64,000 nucleotides of DNA from positions 18,475 to 82,474 of the forward strand of contig CAJJDF010000017.1 in assembly GCA_905182785.1 (NCBI GenBank). Direction: 5' to 3'. This document shows positions 25,725-35,724 of this stretch, piece after piece; positions within the stretch are counted from its first letter, which is position 1, and the number at the start of each line of letters is the position of its first letter. The notes below the pieces were generated by a model, which made no database searches, was not told the origin of the DNA, and worked only from the letters and a program-made list of their open reading frames with translations. The position numbers and the translations under genes were made by a program. Origin of the DNA: an uncultured Flavobacteriales bacterium (GTDB lineage Bacteria; Bacteroidota; Bacteroidia; Flavobacteriales_D; CAJJDF01).

Positions 25725-28247
25725 ATGTCAAAAAACTTAGTCATAGTTGAGTCACCTGCCAAAGCAAAAACCATTGAAGGTTATTTAGGAAAAGGATTTA
25801 CGGTAAAATCTAGTTTTGGTCACGTGAGAGATATTCCAAAAAAAGGAATGGGAATTGACATCGAAAATGATTTTAATCCTAACTATGAAGTTTCTGAAGA
25901 CAAGAAAAAAGTAGTAGCAGAATTAATAAAATTGACAAAAGCATCAGACATTGTGTGGCTTGCGACTGATGAGGATCGAGAAGGAGAAGCTATTTCATGG
26001 CATTTATACGAAACTTTAGGTCTTGATAAAAAAGAAACCAAAAGAATCACATTCAATGAGATTACAAAAACTGCGGTTCAAAACGCAATTGAAAATCCAA
26101 GAGAAATAAATATTGACTTAGTAAATGCTCAGCAAGCAAGAAGAGTATTGGATAGACTGGTAGGATTTGAATTATCTCCTGTACTTTGGAAAAAAATTAA
26201 ACCGTCATTATCTGCAGGGAGAGTTCAGTCTGTAACTGTAAGATTAATTGTAGAAAGAGAAAGAGAAATAAGAGGGTTTGAATCTTCTGCAGCTTATAAA
26301 GTAAAGGCAGAATTTGTATTGGATGGAACTGTAATCAAATCAGATTTAGGTAAAACTTTCAAAACAGAAGAAGAAACATTAATTTTTTTAAATCAATGTA
26401 AAGACTCTGATTTTAAGATTGATGACATTCAGAAAAAACCAGCAAAAAAATCCCCAGCACCTCCATTTACAACTTCTACACTGCAACAAGAAGCAAGTAG
26501 AAAGTTAGGATATTCGGTAAGTAGGACAATGAGTGTTGCTCAAAAACTGTATGAAGCAGGGAGAATAACTTACATGAGAACAGATTCTATTAACTTGTCT
26601 CAAACAGCAAGAAATGGAGCGAAAGCAGAAATTGTAAAATCTTACGGAGATGATTTTTCTTTTCCAAGAGTATTTAAAACAAAAACAAAAGGAGCACAAG
26701 AAGCTCACGAAGCAATAAGACCCTCAAGTTTTGCTGTTCACTCTGCAGGAACAGATAGCAGTGAGAACAGATTGTATGAATTGATTTGGAAAAGAGCAAT
26801 TGCCTCTCAAATGAGTGAAGCTTTATTAGAAAAAACGACAGTAAAAGTAGCAGGATCAAAAATTAGCGAGTTATTTACGGCAAGAGGAGAGATTATAAAA
26901 TTTGAAGGATTTTTAAAAGTTTACTTGGAAGGGAAAGACGATGAAAACGAAGATTTGGAAAGCGAGAATGAAGGAATTTTTCCTCCAATGAATGTTGGAG
27001 ATGCTGTTTCTAAAAAAATAATAGAAGCAACACAAAGGTATACAAGGCCACCCGCAAGATTCTCTGAAGCAGCTTTAGTTAAGAAACTAGAAGAGCTTGG
27101 AATTGGAAGACCTTCAACTTATGCGCCAACGATTACAACTGTGCAAAAAAGAGGGTATGTTTCTAAAGAAGAAATAGATTACAAATCAAGAAATTACGGT
27201 CAGTTAACTCTTAAGAATGGAAAAATAGAAACGAAAGAATTATCTGAAAACTTCGGAGGAGACAAGAATAAACTTCACCCAACTGATATTGGAACAGTTG
27301 TAAATGATTTTTTAGTAGAGAATTTCGATGGAATCTTAGATTATAACTTTACTGCATCCGTAGAAAAGGAATTTGATGATATTGCAGAAGGATTATTGAA
27401 ATGGACTGACATGATTAAGAAATTTTATAATCCTTTTCATACAAAAGTAGAGCATACACTTGAGCATGGAGAAAGACAGTCAGGAGAAAGAGTCCTTGGA
27501 AAAACGGAAGAGGGAGAAGATATTTTAGTAAGAATAGGAAGATTTGGACCCATGGCACAAATTGGAAGAACTTTGGAGGATGAAGATGCTCCAAAACCTA
27601 AATTTTCTTCACTTCAACCTAATCAAAGTATTTCTACTATCAGCCTTGAGGAGGTAATTGATTTATTCAAATTACCAAAAGATTTAGGAATATACGAAGG
27701 AAGTGATGTGATAGTATCTAACGGAAGGTTTGGACCCTATATTAAGCATAACGAAAAATTTGTGTCTATACCAAAAGGAGAAGACCCAATGAACGTAGAC
27801 TTAGCAAGAGCAACAGAATTAATTATTGAAAAAGAAAAAGCTGATGCGCCAATTTATGAATACGAAGGGTTGCCAGTACAAAAAGGGAGTGGAAGATTTG
27901 GTCCTTTTATTAAATGGAATGAAATCTTTATTAATGTAAATAAAAAGTACGACCACGATAATTTATCGGATGAAGACATTGTGGAACTGATAGAAGTAAA
28001 GAAACAAAAAGAGATAGATAAAGTAATTCATAACTGGGAAGAAGAAGGAATAAGAGTAGAAAAAGCAAGATGGGGAAGGTTTAATGTTTTGAAAGGGAAA
28101 ACCAAAATAGAATTGCCAAAAACGACTAAAGCAGAGGAATTAACTTTGGAAGAAGTAAAGGCAATGATTGAGAAAGCAAAACCAGCTAAGAAAAAAGCAA
28201 AGCCAAAAGCTAAGGCTAAAGCCAAACCAAAAGCTAAGAAAAAATAA
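25725..28247 (+). CDS. topA: DNA topoisomerase I
   Basis: LVIVESPAKAKTIEGYLG, ATDEDREGEAISWHL, EAGRITYMRTDS; Lys/Ala-rich tail. Confidence 0.97.
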   Translation: MSKNLVIVESPAKAKTIEGYLGKGFTVKSSFGHVRDIPKKGMGIDIENDFNPNYEVSEDKKKVVAELIKLTKASDIVWLATDEDREGEAISWHLYETLGLDKKETKRITFNEITKTAVQNAIENPREINIDLVNAQQARRVLDRLVGFELSPVLWKKIKPSLSAGRVQSVTVRLIVEREREIRGFESSAAYKVKAEFVLDGTVIKSDLGKTFKTEEETLIFLNQCKDSDFKIDDIQKKPAKKSPAPPFTTSTLQQEASRKLGYSVSRTMSVAQKLYEAGRITYMRTDSINLSQTARNGAKAEIVKSYGDDFSFPRVFKTKTKGAQEAHEAIRPSSFAVHSAGTDSSENRLYELIWKRAIASQMSEALLEKTTVKVAGSKISELFTARGEIIKFEGFLKVYLEGKDDENEDLESENEGIFPPMNVGDAVSKKIIEATQRYTRPPARFSEAALVKKLEELGIGRPSTYAPTITTVQKRGYVSKEEIDYKSRNYGQLTLKNGKIETKELSENFGGDKNKLHPTDIGTVVNDFLVENFDGILDYNFTASVEKEFDDIAEGLLKWTDMIKKFYNPFHTKVEHTLEHGERQSGERVLGKTEEGEDILVRIGRFGPMAQIGRTLEDEDAPKPKFSSLQPNQSISTISLEEVIDLFKLPKDLGIYEGSDVIVSNGRFGPYIKHNEKFVSIPKGEDPMNVDLARATELIIEKEKADAPIYEYEGLPVQKGSGRFGPFIKWNEIFINVNKKYDHDNLSDEDIVELIEVKKQKEIDKVIHNWEEEGIRVEKARWGRFNVLKGKTKIELPKTTKAEELTLEEVKAMIEKAKPAKKKAKPKAKAKAKPKAKKK

Positions 28248-28249
28248 GT

Positions 28250-29410
28250 ATGGATTTTTCTATTTTTCTCACAACCCACAACCCAGATATTATAAATCAA
28301 TATCAGCAAGGGGAAAACACACTGGGGTCAAAAGTTGAATTTCATCAAGGTAAATCAATAGAAAAAGAGTTTGATTTAGCAATTATTGGAGTCAAAGAAT
28401 CTAGAGGAAGCTCAGTTTCTTCGGTAAAAGAAAGTCCAGATTATGTGAGAGAGCACTTGTATGGATTGTTTTCCGATAGTAAATCTAAAATAATTGATTT
28501 AGGAAATATTATTCAGGGTGAAACTTTGCATGATACTCTCTATGCTTTATCTGAAATGGTTCAAGAATTGGTAAAAAAAGATATCATTCCAGTTGTAATT
28601 GGCGGAAGTCAAGAACTTACGTTAGGAATTTACAAAGCCTATGAAAAACTAGAGCAAGTTGTAAACCTAACAACAATAGATAGAAAAATCGATTTTCAGC
28701 ATATTAACGAAACCAACAACAACTCGTATTTAAAAGATATAATCCTTTCTCAGCCCAATTATTTGTTCAATTATTCAAATTTGGGAAGTCAAGCCTATTA
28801 TCTCAATCCAGAGAATGTAAAATTGATGGATAAATTATATTTTGATAATACACGACTTGGAGACTTGCAAGCTGATATTTCTTTAGCTGAGCCAATATTG
28901 AGAAACACCAATATATTAAGTTTTGATTTGAATAGTATTCGTCAAAGCGAAGTGCCAGGAACAAGTTTTGCTTCTCCCAATGGATTTTTTGGAAATGAAG
29001 CCTGTCAACTATCTAGGTATGCTGGCATGAGTGACAAGATGAATGTAGTAGGCTTTTTTGAAATGACGCCAGAATATGATATTCATGGTCAAACTGCCCA
29101 TTTGGTTGCACAAATGATTTGGTTTTTTATTGAAGGGTTTCAATTAAGAAAAAACGAAACACCTCTAACAAACAATAAGAACTACACCAAATATAAAGTA
29201 GTTTTGTCTGCTTCGGAAGAAGAATTGATATTTGTGAAAAGTGCAAAGTCAGACAGGTGGTGGATGAAGATTCCTTACCCTCCTTCTGGGCAAGTTAAAT
29301 ACCAAAGGTATCATCTAGTTCCGTGTTCCTACAAGGACTATCAAACTGCCCTAAAAGATGAAATGCCAGATATTTGGATAAAAACGTACAATAAAATTAA
29401 TATCAATTAG
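28250..29410 (+). CDS. Arginase/formimidoylglutamase-fold protein, metal-site degenerate
   Basis: Ureohydrolase-like order PVVIGGSQE ... TIDRKIDF ... LSFDLNSIRQSEVPGTSFASPNGFFGNEACQLSRYAGMSD; Mn-ligand positions substituted. Confidence 0.75.
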   Translation: MDFSIFLTTHNPDIINQYQQGENTLGSKVEFHQGKSIEKEFDLAIIGVKESRGSSVSSVKESPDYVREHLYGLFSDSKSKIIDLGNIIQGETLHDTLYALSEMVQELVKKDIIPVVIGGSQELTLGIYKAYEKLEQVVNLTTIDRKIDFQHINETNNNSYLKDIILSQPNYLFNYSNLGSQAYYLNPENVKLMDKLYFDNTRLGDLQADISLAEPILRNTNILSFDLNSIRQSEVPGTSFASPNGFFGNEACQLSRYAGMSDKMNVVGFFEMTPEYDIHGQTAHLVAQMIWFFIEGFQLRKNETPLTNNKNYTKYKVVLSASEEELIFVKSAKSDRWWMKIPYPPSGQVKYQRYHLVPCSYKDYQTALKDEMPDIWIKTYNKININ

Positions 29411-29541: not shown

Positions 29542-30501
29542 ATGAAAAGAATTGTATTAATCGCCTTTGCACTTAGTTTCACGTTTGTTTCCAAAGCACA
29601 ACAGGACCCTCAATTGACGCATTTTATGTTCGATAAATTGTCCTATAATCCAGCTTCGGCAGGATTCACTGACTCTTGGTGTCTTACTGCAATTGCTAGA
29701 AAGCAATGGACAGGATTAAATTCTGGAGAACCATCTACTACTTTAATTAACTTTACTACACCTAAGTTTAGTAAGCTTAAAGGAGGTTTTGGATTTACTT
29801 ATTACAATGATCAAATTGCTTGGGAAACTAACAATACATTAAGATTATCATATTCTCTTCATTTAAAAGACTTAGGACTAACAATTGCAGGCGGAGACTT
29901 AGGAATAGGTTTAGCTGCAAGTTACAATACAAAAACAATAAGTGCCGTTTGGGTAACTCCTGATAATATTCCAGCAGGAATTGATGTAGCTATACCTGTC
30001 TCGGGAACCAAAGATGCAGGGATGAGTTTTAATGCAGGACTGTATTACCAACACCCTAATAGTTTATATTTAGGAGTATCAACTACAAACTTGAGCCAAA
30101 CTCAACTAAAAGACTTGAATGTTGATGGAGTTAGGCATTATTATGTAATGGCTGGATACGATTATGACCTAGGAGCTACTGTAGGAACGGGTTTTAATTT
30201 ATTATTAAGAGCAAATGGTTTAATGAAAACGGATGCTGTTAAACAACAATATGATTTAAATTTTAACGTTATGGCTTTCGGCCTTGTATGGGCAGGAGCA
30301 ACCTACAGGCATAATGATGCAATTGCACCAATGGCAGGAATAGAATGGAACGGATTTAGAGTAGGATATTCTTACGGTATTGGTACCTCGTTTTTGTCAA
30401 GCTATTATTCCAATGGGAATCACGAGTTGATGCTGAATTACTGTTTTAAAATTACACCACCAGTAAAATTTGAAAGAGAGGTTCATCCATATTTATTATA
30501 A
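29542..30501 (+). CDS. T9SS membrane protein PorP/SprF family
   Basis: Signal peptide; AQQDPQLTHFMFDKLSYNPASAGF typical of PorP/SprF; directly upstream of gldK. Confidence 0.92.
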   Translation: MKRIVLIAFALSFTFVSKAQQDPQLTHFMFDKLSYNPASAGFTDSWCLTAIARKQWTGLNSGEPSTTLINFTTPKFSKLKGGFGFTYYNDQIAWETNNTLRLSYSLHLKDLGLTIAGGDLGIGLAASYNTKTISAVWVTPDNIPAGIDVAIPVSGTKDAGMSFNAGLYYQHPNSLYLGVSTTNLSQTQLKDLNVDGVRHYYVMAGYDYDLGATVGTGFNLLLRANGLMKTDAVKQQYDLNFNVMAFGLVWAGATYRHNDAIAPMAGIEWNGFRVGYSYGIGTSFLSSYYSNGNHELMLNYCFKITPPVKFEREVHPYLL

Positions 30502-30598: not shown

Positions 30599-32086
30599 AT
30601 GAAAAGAGTAACACTGATGATAGGATTTGCAGCTTTAGTATTTTCAAGCTGTCAAAACGGGAATGGAGAGTTGATTGGAGTTCAGGGTAGACCTGAATGG
30701 TATGGTTATGACCCACTTGATATGCAGTATATTCCTGCAGGAAGTTATACAATGGGACAAAGTGACCAAGATGTGCCATTTACACACCAAAATAAAACTC
30801 GTGTAGTAACTATGTCTGCATTTTATATGGATCATACTGAAATTACAAATAACGAATACCGTCAATTTGTATATTGGGTAAAAGATTCAATAGCAATGAG
30901 GATTTTAGGTGAAAATGATTTTGCTGAAGATTTTTTGTTAGAAACATTGGATGATGAATTCGAACCAAAAGACGAAGAAGACTGGAATCTTAACTGGGAT
31001 AATGTTGGAGATATTGATTGGGCAGATGAAGAAATGGGGCCAATTTTAATTTCTGAAATGGTATTGCCAGAGAATCAAAGAATTTACGGAACAAGAGATA
31101 TTGACGTAAGGAAACTTACTTACGATTATTATTGGATTGATTTTAAAGCAGCAGCTTCTAAAGGAAGACCAGTAGTAAAAACTATGTCTAACTTAGAATA
31201 TGAAGACAGAGAAGAGCACAGAATCAAAATGAAAGACGAAGGTTTTGACTTTCCTGTAGATCAATATGACGAAGAAATTCAGCAAGGAAGAGATTTAGAT
31301 TTAGGATGGAGAAATAGTAAAGGACAAAACAATTCTATCCGTTCTCACTCAGACAGATCGAGGTTTGTAATCCACGAACAAATTAACGTTTATCCAGATA
31401 CATTGGTTTGGGTAAATGATTTTTCATACTCATACAATGAGCCATATGCAAGACAATATTTTTCAAGTCCTGCCTATGATAATTATCCTGTAGTAGGTGT
31501 TACGTGGTCTCAAGCAAAAGCATTTAGTGTTTGGAGAACTAATTTATTGAATAATTTCAGAAAAAGCAATGGAGAAGTAATCATTGATGATTTCAGATTA
31601 CCTTCAGAGGCAGAATGGGAATATGCTGCAAGAGGTGGCTTAAACGAAAGTCCATACCCTTGGGGAGGTCCTTATATTAGAAACTCTAAAGGTTGTTTCT
31701 TAGGAAACTTTAAGCCAATGAGAGGGAGATACATGGAAGATGGAGGTACTTATACAGTAAAAACAACATCATACCATCCTAACGATTACGGTTTATATTG
31801 TATGGCAGGAAATGTTGCTGAGTGGACAAACACAGCCTTTGACGAATCTATGTATGAGTTTTCACATGATTTAAATCCTGAGTATACTTATAATGCATTG
31901 GACCACGATCCAATGTCTATGAAAAGAAAAGTGATAAGAGGAGGGTCATGGAAAGATATTGGATATTACCTACAAACAGGTTCTAGAACTTATGAATACC
32001 AAGATACTGCAAAAAGTTATATTGGATTTAGATGTGTATCTAGTTACCTAGGAAGAGGAGGAAACGAAAGAAACGGAGACTTATAA
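30599..32086 (+). CDS. gldK: T9SS lipoprotein GldK/PorK (SUMF1/FGE fold)
   Basis: Lipobox ALVFSSCQ; FGE motifs DFRLPSEAEWEYAARGG, NVAEWTN, VIRGGSWKD, YIGFRCV; followed by gldLMN. Confidence 0.95.
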   Translation: MKRVTLMIGFAALVFSSCQNGNGELIGVQGRPEWYGYDPLDMQYIPAGSYTMGQSDQDVPFTHQNKTRVVTMSAFYMDHTEITNNEYRQFVYWVKDSIAMRILGENDFAEDFLLETLDDEFEPKDEEDWNLNWDNVGDIDWADEEMGPILISEMVLPENQRIYGTRDIDVRKLTYDYYWIDFKAAASKGRPVVKTMSNLEYEDREEHRIKMKDEGFDFPVDQYDEEIQQGRDLDLGWRNSKGQNNSIRSHSDRSRFVIHEQINVYPDTLVWVNDFSYSYNEPYARQYFSSPAYDNYPVVGVTWSQAKAFSVWRTNLLNNFRKSNGEVIIDDFRLPSEAEWEYAARGGLNESPYPWGGPYIRNSKGCFLGNFKPMRGRYMEDGGTYTVKTTSYHPNDYGLYCMAGNVAEWTNTAFDESMYEFSHDLNPEYTYNALDHDPMSMKRKVIRGGSWKDIGYYLQTGSRTYEYQDTAKSYIGFRCVSSYLGRGGNERNGDL

Positions 32087-32188
32087 GGGTTACCACACTA
32101 TTTAATTTTGAATACCCCATTGAATGAAACGTAACCATTCAATTATTGAAATATATTAATAACAAAAACTAAAAAAAGAAAAAAGTCT

Positions 32189-32995
32189 ATGAAGCCAGGA
32201 ACTAAAGCGTGGAAAAATTTTATGTCGAAACTGTACGGAATTGGTGCAGCAGTAGTAATTATTGGAGCACTATTTAAAATTCAACACTGGCCATATGGTG
32301 GGCTTTTGTTAACAGTAGGATTAGGTACGGAAGCAATAATTTTCTTTTTCTCAGCTTTTGAACCAATACATGAAGATTACGATTGGACATTGGTTTACCC
32401 TGAATTAGCTTTAGGTCATGATTCTGATGATGATGAAATTACTTCATTAACTTCAAGAAACAATGGTTCGGTATCTCAACAATTAGATGGGATGTTTGAA
32501 GAAGCAAAAATTGACGGGGCACTTATTGAAAGTTTGGGTAATGGGATGAGAAATCTTTCTGAGACCGCAAACAAGATTAATACTATGTCAGATGCAACAG
32601 CTGTTTCAGCTGATTATACAAATAGTTTGAAAAATGCAGCTAGTAAAGTAGATGGATTAGCGGACTCTTATACAAAAGCAAGTGAGTCTCTTTTAGGAAT
32701 CACTGGAGCTTCTCAAGCAGGAGAATCTTTTGGAGAAGAAATGCAAAAAGTTGCTGGTAACCTTACTGCACTTAACAAAGTATATGAAATGCAATTAGAA
32801 GGTGCTACAGAATCATTAGAAAACTCTAAAAAGATTCAAAGTGGTATTGGTGAAATGATGGGAACATTAGCAGACTCCGTAGAAGATACTAAAAACTACA
32901 AAGCTAATATCTCTGAATTGAGCAAAAACTTATCTGCATTGAACAAAGTATATGGAAATATGCTAAATGCCATGAATATTAATCCAAACGGATAG
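32189..32995 (+). CDS. gldL: T9SS/gliding motor protein GldL
   Basis: SKLYGIGAAVVIIGALFKIQHWPYGGLLLTVGLGTEAIIFFFSAFEP. Confidence 0.96.
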   Translation: MKPGTKAWKNFMSKLYGIGAAVVIIGALFKIQHWPYGGLLLTVGLGTEAIIFFFSAFEPIHEDYDWTLVYPELALGHDSDDDEITSLTSRNNGSVSQQLDGMFEEAKIDGALIESLGNGMRNLSETANKINTMSDATAVSADYTNSLKNAASKVDGLADSYTKASESLLGITGASQAGESFGEEMQKVAGNLTALNKVYEMQLEGATESLENSKKIQSGIGEMMGTLADSVEDTKNYKANISELSKNLSALNKVYGNMLNAMNINPNG

Positions 32996-33040
32996 TATTC
33001 AATTTTAATAAATTATTAACTTTTTAAAAAATAAATTAAA

Positions 33041-34732
33041 ATGGCAGGTGGAAAAGAAACCCCAAGGCAGAAGATGATTGGAATGATGTATTTGGTATTA
33101 ACAGCAATGTTAGCACTAAACGTTTCCAAAAGTATTCTTGATGCCTTTATAACAATTGACGAACAAGCATTAGAACAAAATAATGTTTTAGTAAAATCAA
33201 TTAATGGAATTGGTAGTACTATTTCGTTTAGAATGCAAGACCCTCAGTCAATGAAGACGGCTAGAGAAATTGATACAATTTATCAAGCGGTAAAAGTAGT
33301 ATCTAATAAGGTGGATGACCATTTCTACTCAGAAATGAATAGGTTGATGGCAGAAACTGAAGGAGATAATTCTTGGTTTAAAAAAGATAACAAAACCCAA
33401 TTGACAACATACAGACCTCTTCAAGAAATTGGTAAAAAAGATGATTACGATACTCCATCGAGATTATTTGGATTAGATGAAGGAAAAGGTAAAAAAGATG
33501 GAATGTTATTAAGACAAAAATTAATCGATTACCGAAATGAATTGATACTTACTTCTGCACACGATGTGAAAGATGACAAGAATATTGTTCATAGCTTTGG
33601 TAAAGAAGTGTTGAAGGATTACAAGACTTTTGCTGCACATTTAAAACAAGATAAACATCCTAATACGATTGTTTTGTTGGAGATGTATAGTAGTTTAACA
33701 AAGCCTGAAAAAATAATTCAAGGTAGAGATAAAGAAAATAAACCTTGGAATGTTGCAATGTTTTTTCATCAACCAATGATAGGTGTGGTTAGTACAATGA
33801 CATCTATGAGAAATGACATTAGAGTTGCTCAAGAAAAAGCTTCTAAAATGTTATTATCTAGAATTGATAAGCCAATGATGAATATCAATAAAATTGATGC
33901 TCAAGTTTTAGCTTCTACTCAATATTTGAATGTTGGTGAAAAATTAGATATAAGTATTGGGATTGTTGCTTATGATTCTACAAAGAAATATCCAGCTAAA
34001 TATAGAATGGCTACTTCTGGAGATTATGTCATAGCAGATTCTGGATCATTCACCTTAAATGCTGGTTCGCCAGGGGAAAGAAATTTAGAAGGATTTTTAG
34101 ATGTAGAAATTAATGGGGAAGTAACACCTTTACCTTTCTCATTTAAATATACAGTTGGTAAACCCTCGGCATCTATTGCAGCTCCAGAGCTTAATGTGTT
34201 ATACAGAGGTTACGACAACAAAATTCAAGCAGTTGCATCTGGTTATCCACCAAGTGATGTTACAACTTCTTGTAGCGGGTGCAGTAGTTTTAGTAAAAGT
34301 GGAGATTTATACATTGCTAAAGTAAAAGGAGGTAAAGAAGCAACCATTTACGTAAAAGCAGCAGGAAAAACTATTGGAGAACAAAAGTTTAGAATTAAAC
34401 CACTTCCTAAGCCACAACCTTATTTTGGAGGACAAACTTATGGTAAAAAGACTATAAAAACAGGAATTTTAAAGCAAACACCACCGCTTACTGCAAAATT
34501 AGCTGACTCACCTTTGAATGTTAGTTTCTCAGTTAAATCCTTTTCACTTGATGTTATAGTAAATGGTAATATTGTTTCTGATAAATCAAAAGGAGGATCT
34601 TTAACACCAAAAATGAAAAACATGGTGAAGAATTCAAAAAGAGGACAAAAGATTTATATTTATGACGTAAAGGTTGCCGGACCAGATGGTAAAGAAAAAT
34701 CTATTGGAGGGCTTACTTTAAAAGTAATATAG
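33041..34732 (+). CDS. gldM: T9SS/gliding motor protein GldM
   Basis: MAGGKETPRQKMIGMMYLVLTAMLALNVSKSILDAF; position in operon. Confidence 0.97.
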   Translation: MAGGKETPRQKMIGMMYLVLTAMLALNVSKSILDAFITIDEQALEQNNVLVKSINGIGSTISFRMQDPQSMKTAREIDTIYQAVKVVSNKVDDHFYSEMNRLMAETEGDNSWFKKDNKTQLTTYRPLQEIGKKDDYDTPSRLFGLDEGKGKKDGMLLRQKLIDYRNELILTSAHDVKDDKNIVHSFGKEVLKDYKTFAAHLKQDKHPNTIVLLEMYSSLTKPEKIIQGRDKENKPWNVAMFFHQPMIGVVSTMTSMRNDIRVAQEKASKMLLSRIDKPMMNINKIDAQVLASTQYLNVGEKLDISIGIVAYDSTKKYPAKYRMATSGDYVIADSGSFTLNAGSPGERNLEGFLDVEINGEVTPLPFSFKYTVGKPSASIAAPELNVLYRGYDNKIQAVASGYPPSDVTTSCSGCSSFSKSGDLYIAKVKGGKEATIYVKAAGKTIGEQKFRIKPLPKPQPYFGGQTYGKKTIKTGILKQTPPLTAKLADSPLNVSFSVKSFSLDVIVNGNIVSDKSKGGSLTPKMKNMVKNSKRGQKIYIYDVKVAGPDGKEKSIGGLTLKVI

Positions 34733-34788
34733 CTAACTTTTTTACGTTAGTAACGTAAGATAGTATTGAGAATTAAAAAAGAAATAAG

Positions 34789-35724
34789 ATGAAGACGAAA
34801 ATTTTAGGAATAGTTATGATGTTGATTGGAAGTCTTGCTTTTGGTCAATTATCTAGTACGGGAGTTTCTCCATCGGGAGTTTTGGATGGTGTTTATATAC
34901 AACAACACATCCCTACAAAAAAAGTAGTTAGCTATGCATCATTGCGAGAAGCTGATGTGATGTGGAGTAAAAGAATTTGGAGAACAATTGACGTACAACA
35001 AAAACTAAATTTTCCTTTGTTTTATCCTGAGGCGCCTTTGACAGATAGAATGGCTTTATGGGATGTCATTAAGTACGGAATTGAAACAGAAGGAAGTCTA
35101 ACTCCTTATGAAATTATCGGAGATGGTAAATACGATTTTGATGGAGAATTTTTATACCCATTATTACCGCCAAACGGGAACACAAAAGATGAAGTATACA
35201 GGGAATCATTGGATGCTATATTTTATTCTACTTCAGAAGTAGAAAAAATTGGAGATGATGGTGAACCAGTTTTTGATTTAGAAGGTGATCCTGAAATGAT
35301 TAAGTCAAAAAAGGCAGTCACAGCAGACCAAATCGTTAAATATTTGGTTAAAGAAGATTGGTTCTTTGACAAACAAAGGTCAGTAATGGATGTTCGTATT
35401 ATTGGAATTTGTCCTGTAATCAAGCAATTTGATGAAAATGGAGACTTGAAAGAAGGAGTAAAGCCATTATTTTGGTTGTATTTTCCTGAGTGTAGGTATG
35501 TATTTCAAAATTACTTTGTCTACAACAGACAAAATGACGCACAAAGAATGTCTTTTGATGATTTATTTTGGAAGAGAATGTTTGCAAGTTTTATTCACAA
35601 AGAATCTAACGTATATGACAGAGATGTTAAAATCTATGAACAAAACGGAATTAAAGCTTTATTACAATCAGAAAAAATTAAAAACGAAATGTTACTTATC
35701 GAACACGACTTGTGGCACTTATAA
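34789..35724 (+). CDS. gldN: T9SS/gliding protein GldN
   Basis: ASLREADVMWSKRIWRTIDVQQKLNFPLFYP; position in operon. Confidence 0.96.
   Translation: MKTKILGIVMMLIGSLAFGQLSSTGVSPSGVLDGVYIQQHIPTKKVVSYASLREADVMWSKRIWRTIDVQQKLNFPLFYPEAPLTDRMALWDVIKYGIETEGSLTPYEIIGDGKYDFDGEFLYPLLPPNGNTKDEVYRESLDAIFYSTSEVEKIGDDGEPVFDLEGDPEMIKSKKAVTADQIVKYLVKEDWFFDKQRSVMDVRIIGICPVIKQFDENGDLKEGVKPLFWLYFPECRYVFQNYFVYNRQNDAQRMSFDDLFWKRMFASFIHKESNVYDRDVKIYEQNGIKALLQSEKIKNEMLLIEHDLWHL

Follow-up and report, generated by a model that had tools for sequence, protein, structure and literature searches.

A conserved arginase-fold protein with a degenerate metal site, encoded between topA and gldKLMN and tentatively linked to the T9SS/gliding motor in a class of Bacteroidota

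What is a protein with the layout of a ureohydrolase, but with altered metal-binding segments, doing next to the genes of the T9SS/gliding motor? The T9SS powers gliding and secretion across Bacteroidota, and to our knowledge few cytoplasmic partners of the GldLM motor are known. As a conserved arginase-like protein from the same gene block, the product of the gene analysed here (ARGx) is a candidate for such a partner that can be tested directly. The gene lies in a stretch of 64,000 nucleotides (the window) from an uncultured Flavobacteriales bacterium. A literature search, which had most subscription journals outside it, retrieved nothing joining arginase or formimidoylglutamase with gldK or the T9SS, and neither a paper on the ARGx family nor mutant data.

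The locus and the fold family of ARGx

The relevant part of the window contains the following genes:

25725..28247, + strand: topA, DNA topoisomerase I, the upstream neighbour (TIGR01051, 668.9 bits, cut-off 456.4)
28250..29410, + strand: ARGx, gene of the putative arginase-fold pseudoenzyme (386 aa, ATG start)
29542..30501, + strand: T9SS membrane protein of the porP/sprF family (TIGR03519, 172 bits)
30599..35724, + strand: gldK, gldL, gldM and gldN (TIGR03525, TIGR03513, TIGR03517 and TIGR03523, each above its cut-off)

The topA stop codon ends at 28247, leaving a gap of 2 nt before ARGx, which is followed by porP, gldK, gldL, gldM and gldN in this order, all of them above the NCBIfam cut-offs. 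ORF coordinates and NCBIfam matches thereby confirm both the spacing and the position before porP/sprF-gldKLMN that an earlier interpretation of the DNA (the sequence-only reading) had given. A promoter scan returned hits at chance level only.

The ureohydrolase layout ascribed to the protein in the same reading is well supported. ARGx matched Pfam Arginase with an E-value of 1.7e-18 (67.5 bits, gathering cut-off 22) and reached 2.6e-14 in a PDB profile search, and when its AlphaFold model (mean pLDDT 76, moderate confidence) was compared to the PDB using Foldseek, all top 50 matches were ureohydrolases (best E-value 7e-14). Metformin hydrolase subunits appear among the matches. By profile match and predicted structure, ARGx is thus assigned to the arginase fold family. 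Model confidence is lowest in the loops that surround the metal site, so our claims on this site rest on alignment.

The closest curated model is that of HutG (TIGR01227), and HutG structures (PDB 3m1r, 4mxr) are among the closest solved ones; hutG was also the curated model matched by 31/31 scanned ARGx members. The window protein scored 73.4 bits against this model, far under the curated cut-off of 229.15, and no NCBIfam model exceeded its own cut-off. ARGx further differs from HutG by the loss of second-metal ligands and by an extra C-terminal domain. Annotation as formimidoylglutamase by automated pipelines is plausible.

A metal site lost in part from a gene under purifying selection

In arginase (rat numbering), one Mn is bound via H101, D124, D128 and D232, and the other one via D124, H126, D232 and D234. 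The plant arginase equivalents of the ligands of both metal sites have been described (PMC7370999). The corresponding and neighbouring segments of ARGx are:

28601..28615, + strand: GGSQE, replacing GGDHS, with ligand H101 changed to Gln121 (reading and alignment)
28679..28693, + strand: DRKID, replacing DAHxD, with D124 and D128 kept as Asp144 and Asp148 and H126 changed to Lys146
28919..28933, + strand: SFDLN, replacing SxDxD, with D232 kept as Asp226 and D234 changed to Asn228
28976..29035, + strand: PNGFFGNEACQLSRYAGMSD, a segment conserved in the ARGx family (family alignment)
29156..29407, + strand: C-terminal domain, residues 303-386, predicted to form four strands and two helices

At H101, D124, H126, D128, D232 and D234, the window protein reads Q-D-K-D-D-N instead of the conserved H-D-H-D-D-D, and thus keeps only three of the six ligands expected of a catalytic ureohydrolase. 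The three Mn-binding segments are altered exactly as had been quoted, but the alteration is incomplete, with Asp144, Asp148 and Asp226 (3/6 ligands) intact. When ARGx is aligned with 3m1r and further enzymes of known structure, as had been suggested, the lost ligands are clearly placed; 3m1r itself, the HutG of B. subtilis, carries Asn at the place of H101.

Across an alignment of 62 orthologs, from which L049 was excluded due to a frame break, each protein keeps 3 or 4 of the 6 ligands. D124 and D232 are present in all 62 and D128 in 60, while H126 is lost in 60 (kept in two) and D234 in 62/62. The H101 position is occupied by Gln in 45, His in 15 and Asn in two orthologs, and 43/62 carry Lys or Arg at position 146. 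Glu271 is shared by every canonical relative checked but by only 34/62 orthologs. All six ligands together were found in none of the members from 46 genomes, a sample that overlaps the 62 orthologs, and in families f6 and f8 of this sample most ligands are gone and the gene is still kept. The ARGx of f6 (L067-L070) evolves very fast and lies apart from gldKLMN; in L068-L070 it remains near topA. The alignments point to a family-wide loss of the second metal site and to retention of most of the first one. Because part of the metal site is lost in every relative examined, we infer from these residues that ARGx is probably non-catalytic and has a non-enzymatic job. Two further family members with all six ligands, one arginase-like and the other HutG-like, are encoded in the genome of the window and can cover the enzymatic need. 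The second weak arginase-family gene of this genome, L003:1501-2280 (G000:C2:18141-18920), has its six ligands intact; its product scored only 61 bits against hutG (cut-off 229).

Relative to canonical relatives, the ARGx proteins form a single clade (support 100/100). In the comparison with the closest relative (75% amino acid identity), dN was 0.18 and dS about 2.6 (saturated); as dN is low while dS is near saturation, selection on ARGx is purifying. Pseudogene decay was ruled out by this purifying selection and by the breadth of occurrence; the earlier statement that the gene is not decaying agrees with the dN/dS values and with a degenerate site common to the whole family. The C-terminal domain of about 84 residues bears WW and PC..DY..A motifs, with F328, W337, W338 and C359 invariant in A4. 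It is missing from the canonical relatives aligned and shorter in f5 and f6, and searches of Pfam, PDB sequences and PDB folds gave no match for it.

Gene order, distribution and evolutionary rates

In 82/126 tabulated genomes from 24 families, including that of the window, the genes are arranged as ARGx-(porP)-gldK-gldL and their spacing hardly varies; the fraction is not a population estimate as the table consists of the best-scoring class matches plus families known to be unlinked. ARGx and gldL share a strand in these 82 genomes, with ARGx upstream at a distance of mostly 1.6 to 2.9 kb. It lies away from gldKLMN in at least nine families (f4, f5, f6, f8, f9, f10, f68, f89 and f97), some of these cases being merely different contigs. 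The linkage between ARGx and T9SS genes is real but not universal: a repeated order with gldKLMN is seen in 24 families and missing from at least nine, a mixed outcome for the synteny test that had been suggested. Within a set of 51 genomes, ARGx had both topA and gld neighbours in 26, gld without topA in two (one from f2, the other from f71), topA without shown gld in three and neither in 20. In f8 (L071, L072, L074), a very diverged ARGx-like ORF lies next to a gldJ/gldK-type lipoprotein gene and to two genes that we take to be murF and a large porU-like gene.

At three scanned loci lacking ARGx in the slot, HemD (uroporphyrinogen-III synthase) and DUF4271 proteins are encoded directly upstream of porP or gldK (L092:5760-7886, L096:8042-9924 and L095:6983-8814). 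HemD is a housekeeping enzyme with no obvious T9SS role, and since HemD and DUF4271 fill the same slot, function is not readable from position alone. Masked N bases account for an apparent 'GldK fusion' of 2885 aa in L094, which was dismissed as an artefact.

Among 296 sampled genomes of this Bacteroidota class, ARGx was found in 281, a few of these detections being weak matches, and GldL in 289. Both were present in 279, ARGx only in two, GldL only in ten and neither in five genomes (Fisher p 3e-6, to which we give little weight because the genomes are not independent). The GldL-positive genomes without ARGx include f11, f13 and f12 g55. A good ARGx match and no GldL match, despite 99% completeness, was observed for L023 (genome G352, f4); GldL is present in its congener G007.

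Branch rates were compared on a fixed tree with topA, fmt, murB and rlmN removed as controls. Given these four controls, the ARGx rate correlated with those of GldK, GldL and GldM with r values of 0.29, 0.38 and 0.21, respectively, and of 0.41, 0.27 and 0.42 when fast lineages were removed. For the 18 genomes with unlinked loci, r between ARGx and GldL was 0.59 (p below 0.001), and 0.33 (p 0.08) without the fast f6/f8 branches. The correlations of fmt, murB and rlmN with Gld rates were mostly near zero. As the correlation of topA with Gld rates is about as strong as that of ARGx, part of the signal is not T9SS-specific. Several variants of the test were run and weaker values are included here; the covariation of ARGx and Gld beyond housekeeping controls is a modest, suggestive hint.

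Possible functions of ARGx

Our preferred reading, to which we assign a probability of roughly 0.45, is that ARGx is a catalytically dead ureohydrolase that persists as an accessory protein in the cytoplasm, most likely for the T9SS/gliding motor. In this view, an arginase-fold protein of long standing in this Bacteroidota class would no longer form the binuclear metal centre of ureohydrolases, and with it would have lost the hydrolysis of guanidino or formimino substrates. The protein, whose sequence shows no obvious signal peptide by eye, would survive in the cytoplasm as a scaffold or sensor, with the three Asp of the former active-site pocket perhaps holding a cation or ligand; as a point against this reading, these Asp could also reflect a residual metal function. 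We further infer that the added C-terminal domain makes partner contacts and that ARGx most likely serves the assembly, stability or regulation of the motor. A role in T9SS/gliding is plausible. The sequence-only reading had seen a non-catalytic or differently catalytic protein repurposed for this system or for regulation; the degenerate family-wide site and the gld gene order speak for it, but the repurposing is put in doubt by the lack of linkage in at least nine families, by genomes with GldL and without ARGx, and by HemD in the slot. It appears rather improbable that ARGx is an undescribed class-wide component or regulator of the T9SS/gliding machinery recruited from a ureohydrolase, which would sense a small ligand in its former active site and, via its C-terminal domain, adjust how the GldLM motor is assembled or works to the metabolic state.

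The same observations bear on a rival reading in which a non-catalytic ARGx has a general cytoplasmic role outside the T9SS and owes its gld linkage to inheritance of the gene order, like HemD and DUF4271 in other lineages. We regard this as somewhat unlikely, although topA adjacency is as frequent as gld adjacency (26 genomes with both neighbours, two with gld alone, three with topA and no shown gld), ARGx and gld are unlinked in many families, hemD and DUF4271 fill the slot elsewhere and topA rates follow Gld as well. Against it, one f2 and one f71 genome retain ARGx and gld without topA, the f8 ARGx is found beside gldJ-type and porU-like genes, and the rate covariation remains in unlinked genomes. 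An active enzyme of changed chemistry, with one metal on Asp144, Asp148, Asp226 and Gln/His121, would fit the near-complete retention of D124, D128 and D232, the His at H101 in 15/62 orthologs and the Asn at this place in B. subtilis HutG. It is unlikely in view of Glu271 being E in only 34/62 orthologs, of Lys/Arg at position 146 in 43/62, unfavourable beside a second cation, and of the gene being kept in f6 and f8 despite losing most ligands. An ordinary formimidoylglutamase with mis-aligned ligands is hardly credible: the match of 31/31 members to hutG is outweighed by a score of only 73 bits (cut-off 229) and by the clear placement of the lost ligands on 3m1r and other solved enzymes.

As a dead ureohydrolase, ARGx would extend the few known arginase-fold pseudoenzymes by a large, old family in which the second metal site is consistently lost. 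The arginase-like TbARG of Trypanosoma brucei, a eukaryote, is reported to have the arginase fold without arginase activity. The closest precedent is MetCb, a metal-free arginase-family subunit needed for metformin hydrolase activity, in which five of the six ligands are changed (three to five across the MetCb clade) (PMC11271267). MetCb/MfmB (PDB 8ryi, 8snf, 8x3g) is an arginase-fold protein under selection that, like ARGx, has lost several of the six ligands, and ARGx would share its status as a pseudoenzyme. No metal is seen in the MetCb structure. ARGx could thus be envisaged as the partner of a catalytic ureohydrolase in a hetero-oligomer, as MetCb caps its catalytic subunit (PMC11271267) and metformin hydrolase subunits are among the ARGx matches. 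This is very improbable given that most metCa/metCb genes are adjacent, whereas no catalytic ureohydrolase paralog adjoins ARGx in the part of the window and the neighbourhoods read, its neighbours being topA and gldKLMN. ARGx also differs from MetCb/MfmB in carrying a C-terminal domain of its own.
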